Part shown: positions 6,906-34,200 of the stretch, piece after piece
How the letters are laid out: every line of letters begins with the position of its first letter
Numbering within the stretch: the stretch's first letter is position 1
DNA from: Verrucomicrobiia bacterium
GTDB taxonomy: Bacteria > Verrucomicrobiota > Verrucomicrobiia > Opitutales > Cerasicoccaceae
Direction: 5' to 3'
Assembly: GCA_030425485.1 (NCBI GenBank)
Contig: JAUIAM010000007.1
Span: 1 to 64,000, forward strand
Length of the DNA: 64,000 nucleotides
Notes under the pieces: model-generated
Seen by the model: only the letters and a program-made list of their open reading frames with translations
What the model was told of the DNA's origin: nothing
Databases searched by the model: none
Translations under genes and position numbers: made by a program

Positions 6906-7086
6906 GCAAGGAGCGCTTGCCAGGAAAACAGGGCCTTCAATGGGGCATTTTTCCCCTGACGAATTTCCTTTGAAATCTGGCAACAGCAGTCTATAGTTTA
7001 TCTTTCAGAATCCTCTTCTGTGTACGAAACCTATCGTCTGCTCTTATCCTTTTCTTCTATCCAGGGAGCTCGAACCCGAAGTGTGG
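6906..7086. other. Intergenic region upstream of the pilus-type locus
   Basis: Just after the upstream stop lies a small hairpin, GGCAAG-GAGCG-CTTGCC (6906-6922), without a following T-run, then a GGGG/CCCC pair around 6938-6954. They may end transcription of the preceding operon weakly. No promoter consensus stood out in the rest, which ends at the first of two very small reading frames described separately. Confidence 0.4.
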
Positions 7087-7170
7087 ATGTCAGGCCGTAA
7101 ACCGGAAGACAAAAGCAATTTGGAGAGCACCCACCTTAACTCGATTAGGTTAACAGAGCACACACAATGA
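7087..7170 (+). CDS. Possible leader peptide 1 (27 residues)
   Basis: An ATG at 7087 opens a 27-codon frame ending in TGA at 7168-7170. Its stop overlaps the ATG of a second tiny frame (ATGA). The peptide is hydrophilic and resembles nothing known to me. No strong ribosome binding site precedes it. It is listed only because the ATGA chain leads directly into the first gene of the pilus-type locus. It could be chance. Confidence 0.25.
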   Translation: MSGRKPEDKSNLESTHLNSIRLTEHTQ

Positions 7171-7217
7171 CGGCACGAGCAGAGGATTCTATTATTTTTA
7201 AGGCCCAAGTCGCATGA
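7167..7217 (+). CDS. Possible leader peptide 2 (16 residues)
   Basis: A 16-codon frame whose ATG overlaps the stop of the frame before it and whose TGA (7215-7217) overlaps the ATG of the next gene at 7214, again as ATGA. Two successive ATGA junctions are suggestive of coupled translation, but frames of this size arise by chance and there is no Shine-Dalgarno for it. Confidence 0.25.
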   Translation: MTARAEDSIIFKAQVA

Positions 7218-33828: not shown

Positions 33829-33916
33829 GGAGAGGTGGCAGAGTGGCCGATTGCGGCGGTCTTGAAAACCGCTGACGGGCAACCGTCCGGGGGTTCGAAT
33901 CCCTCCCTCTCCGCCA
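33829..33916 (+). tRNA. tRNA-Ser (anticodon UGA), CCA encoded
   Basis: 88 bases including encoded CCA. The acceptor stem GGAGAGG (33829-33835) pairs with CCTCTCC (33906-33912), with discriminator G at 33913. The anticodon stem GCGGT/ACCGC holds the loop CTTGAAA, giving anticodon TGA. The long variable arm (CGGG-CAA-CCG type) makes it class II, as expected for serine, and the T loop is GGTTCGAATCC. The last 13 bases are repeated downstream as part of a 117-bp tandem array. Confidence 0.97.
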
Positions 33917-34200
33917 CAAACGCTCAGCGTTTGATCCGACTGAGGGGCGCTGCCCCTACGGTGCTGCGCACCTACCCCTGGTGGTTTCGATTGCTCCGGA
34001 AAAGCTCGCATTCCTTTACCTCCCTCTCCGCCGCAAACGCTCGGCGTTTGATCCGATTGAGGGGCGCTGCCCCTACGGCACTGCGTGCCTACCCCTGGTG
34101 GTTTCGATTGCACCAGAAAAGTTCGCATTTCCTTACCACGCGCTCCGGCACAAACGCCCGGCCTTTGACCCGATTGAACGGTACTACGCGGCTTGGCGGG
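33904..34200 (+). repeat. 117-bp tandem repeats starting in the tRNA-Ser 3' end
   Basis: Copy 1 is 33904-34020 and begins with the last 13 bases of the tRNA; copy 2 is 34021-34137, about 90% identical; copy 3 (from 34138) is a decayed partial copy of roughly 45-60 bases. Each full copy holds three hairpins: an AAACGC/GCGTTT stem, AGGGGC-GCT-GCCCCT, and a 5-bp stem that is GGTGC-TGC-GCACC in copy 1 and GGCAC-TGC-GTGCC in copy 2 (two compensated pairs). The design resembles the repeats that follow E. coli tyrT, which also begin with tRNA 3' sequence. The period is 39 codons, so a basic reading frame stays open through it; I do not regard that frame as a protein. Confidence 0.9.

Follow-up and report, generated by a model that had tools for sequence, protein, structure and literature searches.

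In Escherichia coli, 178-bp repeats (rtT RNA) lie in tandem behind the tRNA gene tyrT, and each of them begins with tRNA 3′ sequence. REPs of the GTAG superfamily are abundant in the verrucomicrobium O. terrae and mostly lie downstream of genes, their stems carrying alternative complementary residues; clusters of them are reiterated in tandem together with flanking DNA, and a role in termination has been proposed for REPs (Di Nocera et al. 2013, PMC3733652). Accretion of elements at tRNA ends has also been described (PMC5704250). REP-type hairpins and tRNA 3′-end insertion sites are usually treated separately, and they are combined in the 117-bp repeat described here, behind a tRNA-Ser(UGA) gene; the open-licence papers on tyrT, tRNA repeats and GIY-YIG nucleases at tRNAs report no such array, and an older report is possible. 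On balance, the repeat is probably a miniature non-autonomous cassette at tRNA-Ser 3′ ends, carrying REP-type hairpins and spread by recombination there.

In the window, which is the whole 64,000-nt stretch of DNA analysed, tRNA-Ser(UGA) is the sole tRNA gene found by ARAGORN, and the period-117 array behind it (33902-34177, TRF score 419) is by far the strongest tandem repeat (Table 1). The earlier note had placed three copies at 33904, 34021 and 34138, each 117 from the next, and these starts are confirmed; copies 1 and 2 are full length, but copy 3 is a decayed remnant of only about 40 bp, with its first stem disrupted (AAACGC..GCCTTT). Copy 1 does open with the final 13 bases of the tRNA including the encoded CCA, and copy 2 has CCG, as had been observed. 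The difference between these copies, given before as about 12 positions, is exactly 12 of 117 (90% identity), and four of the twelve (33962, 33963, 33969 and 33970) do form two compensated pairs in a single 5-bp stem (GGTGC/GCACC vs GGCAC/GTGCC). The "inner pair" of the first hairpin also changes from T-A to T-G to C-G as noted, but its position is the loop edge. The last 13-16 bases of the tRNA form the left boundary of the cassette (target/core); a direct copy of the tRNA 3′ end is clear at the boundary of copies 1 and 2 (12 of 13 bases), and the copy at the far side of most units is decayed. Chance as the origin of the array was ruled out by its TRF score together with the presence of the unit at four tRNA-Ser loci. 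An Rfam cmscan of the window at gathering thresholds returned only the tRNA and a 6S RNA, with no family at the array and no rtT RNA; the 6S RNA (RF00013, 73.5 bits) lies at 7009-7189 on the plus strand.

Table 1. Positions, within the window, of the tRNA-Ser(UGA) gene and the parts of the 117-bp array.
Feature	Position	Strand	Source or remark
tRNA-Ser(UGA)	33829..33916	+	ARAGORN; Rfam RF00005, 55.7 bits
Cassette copy 1 (tRNA 3′ end, hairpins A, B and C, right end)	33904..34020	+	TRF
Hairpin A, copy 1, CAAACGCTCAGCGTTTG	33917..33933	+	family with 4 compensatory pairs
Hairpin B, copy 1, GGGGCGCTGCCCC, minus-strand GTAG foot	33944..33956	+	dispersed family
Hairpin C, copy 1, GGTGCTGCGCACC, minus-strand GTAG foot	33960..33972	+	family with 3 compensatory pairs
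Right-end motif, copy 1, CGATTGCTCCGGAAAAGCTCGCATTCCT	33988..34015	+	
Second tRNA-Ser 3′-end copy, TCCCTCTCCGCCG, boundary of copies 1 and 2	34021..34033	+	
Cassette copy 2	34021..34137	+	TRF
Hairpin A, copy 2	34034..34050	+	
Hairpin B, copy 2	34061..34073	+	
Hairpin C, copy 2, GGCACTGCGTGCC	34077..34089	+	
Right-end motif, copy 2, CGATTGCACCAGAAAAGTTCGCATTTCC	34105..34132	+	
Third tRNA-Ser 3′-end copy, decayed, ACGCGCTCCGGCA	34138..34150	+	
Copy 3, partial, decayed	34138..34177	+	TRF; 72% identity to copy 2 over remainder

The genome to which the window belongs (G000; 62 contigs, 98% complete) was searched with the unit, which is present at all four of its tRNA-Ser genes, in place or displaced. 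Besides the tRNA-Ser(UGA) array on contig C8, full-length matches were obtained at the other tRNA-Ser loci. One follows tRNA-Ser(GCU) on C24. Another follows the tRNA-Ser(CGA) 3′ half on C4, at the contig end, which cuts the array off, and the start of C56 apparently continues this array; since C4 (1-218) and C56 (1-206) both end within the array, the CGA array probably has at least three copies, left unresolved by the assembly. The third match is an orphan unit on C11; its strand is that of tRNA-Ser(GGA), which lies 21 kb upstream of it. Contig C19 has the complete tRNA-Ser(CGA), which adjoins a 343-aa protein (L129, 2761-3792, minus strand) that is read as a phage-type integrase; it has no Pfam match at 1e-3, and a relative with 37% identity lies close to tRNA-Ser(CGA) in G004 (L114). 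Given this protein and the further ORFs of C19 and C4, which are phage-like as judged by eye, the most likely cause of displacement is a prophage for the CGA unit and an island for the GGA unit, on a joining that we infer. The C11 orphan matches the GCU unit at 98% identity, and this similarity begins at the tRNA 3′ end and stops at ACCATGCGC, with unrelated flanks on both sides; two unlinked copies of such identity in unrelated surroundings mark a discrete cassette. Moreover, the tRNA-end copy of the orphan, CCCGCCCTCTCCGCC (CCCGCCC), matches tRNA-Ser(GCU) and not the CCCTCCC of the tRNA-Ser(GGA) upstream of it, as if, judging from these bases, the C11 cassette had come from the GCU locus.

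The arrays in relatives that the earlier note had envisaged do occur, as units lie behind tRNA-Ser in other genomes of the genus. Behind tRNA-Ser(UGA), the unit is in place in G003, displaced in G001 and represented in G002 by a variant with a different first hairpin; behind tRNA-Ser(GCU), it is present in G002 and, with different hairpins, in G003. No unit was found behind GCU or GGA in G001, or behind GGA in G002 and G003, and ordinary hairpin-plus-T terminators take its place at GCU in G001 (L133) and at GGA in G003 (L122). A comparable arrangement follows tRNA-Ser(CGA) in G005, of another genus. The exact 21-base hairpin A pattern, run against 84,980 species genomes, from which records of G000 or a near relative were possibly left out, matched only JB024, a member of the genus, and one alphaproteobacterial MAG contig; by our estimate, about 0.5 chance matches are expected in such a search. 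The unit has no integrase of its own, 117 bp being too small for any gene, and at other loci an island, a prophage or a GIY-YIG cassette lies between it and the tRNA, which is accretion. In G001, the order behind tRNA-Ser(UGA) is an island of about 37.6 kb, a GIY-YIG cassette and the unit, the last two each behind a tRNA 3′-end copy. This island encodes a large serine recombinase (PF00239, PF07508, PF13408; L131, 128-2203, minus strand), whose open frame crosses the tRNA-Ser(UGA) gene antisense and whose relatives adjoin tRNA-Ser in G003, G007 and G008. As well, in G011 and G012, from other families of the order (L106, L115, L118, L218), tRNA-Ser is followed by unrelated segments of about 100-150 bp, which terminate in a tRNA 3′-end copy and contain an inverted echo of the T-arm of their own tRNA (GTGGGATGAGAACCCAC, GGGGGATGAGAAGCCCC) that varies in step with the tRNA.

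The hairpins of the cassette belong to a family dispersed through the genomes of the genus, with at least 21-33 sites per genome. Hairpin A with its tail (AAACGCNCGGCGTTTGATCCG, at most 2 mismatches) has 22, 21, 6 and 10 sites in the four genus genomes, and hairpin B (GAGGGGC N1-5 GCCCCTACG) has 33, 22, 25 and 21 exact sites, the reversed control giving 0 in both cases; outside the genus, the hairpin B pattern has 3 sites in G005 and no match in G004, G006 and G007. Among 60 dispersed loci, an ORF of at least 100 codons has its stop within -45 to +6 of hairpin B on the sense side in 41 and on the antisense side in 6, against a random expectation of 4.5. For 7 of these 41 ORFs, such as those at L161, L166, L172 and L191, the stop is the module's own TGA (distance +2), so that the repeat supplies the end of the protein. 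At L178 (G000:C17:73923), tRNA-Gln is directly followed by hairpin modules that lack the tRNA-Ser right end. On the minus strand, hairpins C and B read GTAG-GCAC..GTGCC-GTAG-GGGC..GCCCC, which is the form of the GTAG REP superfamily; like its members, 20-40 bp palindromes with GTAG at one end, they are tagged at one foot, but each is short, at 16-17 bp including the tag. The final G of GTAG doubles as the first stem base, and hairpin A has no tag. The hairpins are also dispersed, in high copy and downstream of genes, as GTAG REPs are. The Y1 (RAYT) transposase family PF01797 has no match in G000, G001 and G003 and weak matches in G002 (best 4.7e-10), and the palindromes around four RAYT-type genes of sister genera are different ones; REP mobility driven by a RAYT was accordingly dropped for G000.

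The right end of the cassette has a different distribution. Each unit closes with about 28 bp like CGATYGC.....GAAAGTTCGCATT (..AAAGTTCGCATT..), followed by a more or less decayed tRNA-end copy. With at most 3 mismatches, this pattern occurs at 8 places in G000, 7 of them in tRNA-Ser cassettes, and its reversal at 0; across six genomes it is also found in the UGA and GCU units of G003 and at a few scattered 3-mismatch places. The right end is thus nearly restricted to tRNA-Ser cassettes. Its GTTCG part may resemble the tRNA T-loop by coincidence or as a decayed echo. The idea that it is a relic of the serine recombinase C-terminus (RTF.. frame) was left aside, the similarity being only weak. 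A matrix built from the G000 right ends was run over the tRNA-Ser loci on both strands, and its top matches outside units were, at L225 of G084, the right end of the GIY-YIG cassette following tRNA-Ser(GGA); at L112 of G001, that of a deleted GIY-YIG cassette which precedes an inverted unit close to tRNA-Ser(CGA); and, at L128, the junction to the left of the C11 orphan. On the 20-kb piece L132, the right end of the G001 GIY-YIG cassette ranks third. At L112, the GIY-YIG right end continues into CCTTACCATGCGTCCAGCCAC, which is nearly the unit's own end CCTTACCACGCGCTCCGGCAC. These similarities are short, with about 15-17 matches in 24 positions, and the motif is missing from two GIY-YIG elements (L216, L226); both points tell against the cassette reading.

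The GIY-YIG cassettes among these larger elements encode a nuclease (PF01541) of about 100 aa, in G001 at 2492198-2492530, which is found directly behind tRNA genes or tRNA-Ser-end copies in many families of the phylum (L215-L220, L223, L225-L229, L245-L248, L251, L252, L255); the tRNAs are Ser and also Gln, Asn and Asp, and the nuclease gene has the same orientation and mostly lies within 230 bp. Of the 32 GIY-YIG loci read, 17 have a tRNA, mostly Ser, within 342 bp upstream, and two or three more lie behind tRNA-Ser-end copies. Behind the tRNA GCCA, these cassettes often have a left end GCCATTCGAC..GCTCATGGCAGG. The nuclease looks like part of an undescribed small mobile element, and it is a lead for the mobilising enzyme because its close relatives across the phylum mostly lie directly behind tRNAs in the same orientation. 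It counts against the cassette reading that G000 has neither a Y1 transposase nor, at E 1e-6, a GIY-YIG relative of the tRNA-linked family. A broader proposal, that undescribed small mobile elements of Verrucomicrobiota home to tRNA 3′ ends, the GIY-YIG ones being autonomous and the 117-bp units their hairpin-carrying non-autonomous derivatives, is speculative and in our view unlikely; if true, the 117-bp units would be comparable to MITEs, but with tRNAs as their target.

Copies may also have spread from one tRNA-Ser gene to another through ordinary homologous exchange. A serious rival of the cassette reading is tandem reiteration with gene conversion. A REP cluster fixed behind one tRNA-Ser gene would have been multiplied in tandem, flanks included, through slippage or unequal homologous exchange, and gene conversion through the shared tRNA 3′ end would have copied it to the other tRNA-Ser genes, without site-specific recombination. 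The REP-like form of the hairpins and their location at gene ends are in keeping with such a course, as are the likeness of all tRNA-Ser genes over about 15-30 bp at the 3′ end and the tandem reiteration of REP clusters described by Di Nocera et al.; nevertheless, the right end is foreign to the dispersed hairpins and occurs almost exclusively in tRNA-Ser cassettes, similar right ends are found on larger elements at these sites, the GCU/C11 cassette stops abruptly on the right at a second tRNA-end copy, and the orphan carries the tRNA end of the GCU type. Reiteration with gene conversion is therefore held to be a real possibility, though not a probable one.

The covariation bears on what the hairpins do. 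For hairpin A, 16 distinct versions have 95.5% of their cells paired, with changes on both sides at 4 of the 7 pairs; for hairpin C, 13 distinct versions give 96.9% and 3 of 5. In 500 shuffles, neither the observed paired percentage nor the covariation score was reached for either hairpin, figures that are not probabilities because the hairpin sequences are related by descent, and pairing is also kept in sequences picked by position only. The base pairing seen by the earlier note therefore persists as more versions are aligned. Its proposal that the repeats are transcribed together with tRNA-Ser as a structured trailer RNA or a decoy for tRNA-processing enzymes, with hairpins under selection, could draw on these compensatory changes and on the position of the repeats directly 3′ of the tRNA with no notable T-run terminator between. 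Yet the pairing is kept across the whole dispersed family, so that the covariation is not evidence for a tRNA-linked RNA: these hairpins, covarying in the same way, lie behind dozens of protein genes with no tRNA, and they also lie behind tRNA-Gln. Moreover, the UGA unit of G003 lacks one side of the middle hairpin, several tRNA-Ser genes of the genus have no unit, two of them having T-run terminators, and the Rfam match is to the tRNA alone. Fold energy was set aside as support for an array RNA, as that of the array is no better than that of shuffled sequence (z = -1.26). A dedicated trailer RNA or decoy is consequently quite improbable, the least supported of the cassette, reiteration and trailer readings, and the array may yield an RNA as a by-product.

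A plainer account, in which the hairpins terminate transcription of the tRNA gene and owe their number to chance, would suit their sense orientation at gene 3′ ends (41 of 60) and the termination role proposed for REPs (PMC3733652). However, the strong stems are not followed by a T-run, relatives have ordinary T-run terminators behind some tRNA-Ser genes (L133 and L122), and the tRNA 3′-end copies and the right end are left unexplained, which makes this account very improbable.

Under the preferred cassette reading, the unit, whose boundaries are seen to be tRNA-Ser 3′-end copies, would carry hairpins drawn from the dispersed gene-end family of the genus, and its right end of about 28 bp would be held in common with larger elements inserting at the same place. 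Movement would proceed by recombination at the tRNA 3′ end, which would restore the tRNA end and leave an extra copy downstream; tandem copies could arise from repeated insertion or unequal exchange, and prophages or islands arriving later would push older cassettes off the tRNA. By analogy with REPs, any effect of the hairpins on RNA would probably be that of an exonuclease barrier or a transcript end. On this reading, small passengers in mobile-DNA traffic at tRNA ends can produce arrays that resemble a tRNA-linked RNA gene, and the cassettes offer a concrete route to asking what moves them.

Compared with described systems, the cassette resembles the tyrT repeats of E. coli in its tandem arrangement behind a tRNA and in repeats that start with tRNA 3′ sequence, and it differs from them and from rtT RNA in having no Rfam match and in taking its hairpins from a genome-wide dispersed family. 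With GTAG REPs, which go with RAYT transposases, it shares short palindromes with GTA(G) at one foot, alternative stem residues, a location downstream of genes and tandem copies that include flanks; unlike those REPs, it has two GTAG hairpins in the same direction after a third hairpin of another type, RAYTs are absent from G000, G001 and G003, and its units at tRNA-Ser have, in addition, a right end and copies of the tRNA 3′ end. The GIY-YIG cassettes likewise lie directly behind tRNA-Ser 3′ ends or their copies, and some have the right-end motif, whereas they carry an ORF of about 100 aa and a left end that differs from that of the unit, bar a few bases in the G001 unit. As in CIME (cis-mobilizable element) and accretion arrays (PMC5704250), an element with no integrase lies between tRNA 3′-end copies, and later elements integrate next to the tRNA and push it away; compared on sequence features, the present cassette differs from a CIME in being only 117 bp long, gene-free and arranged in tandem.
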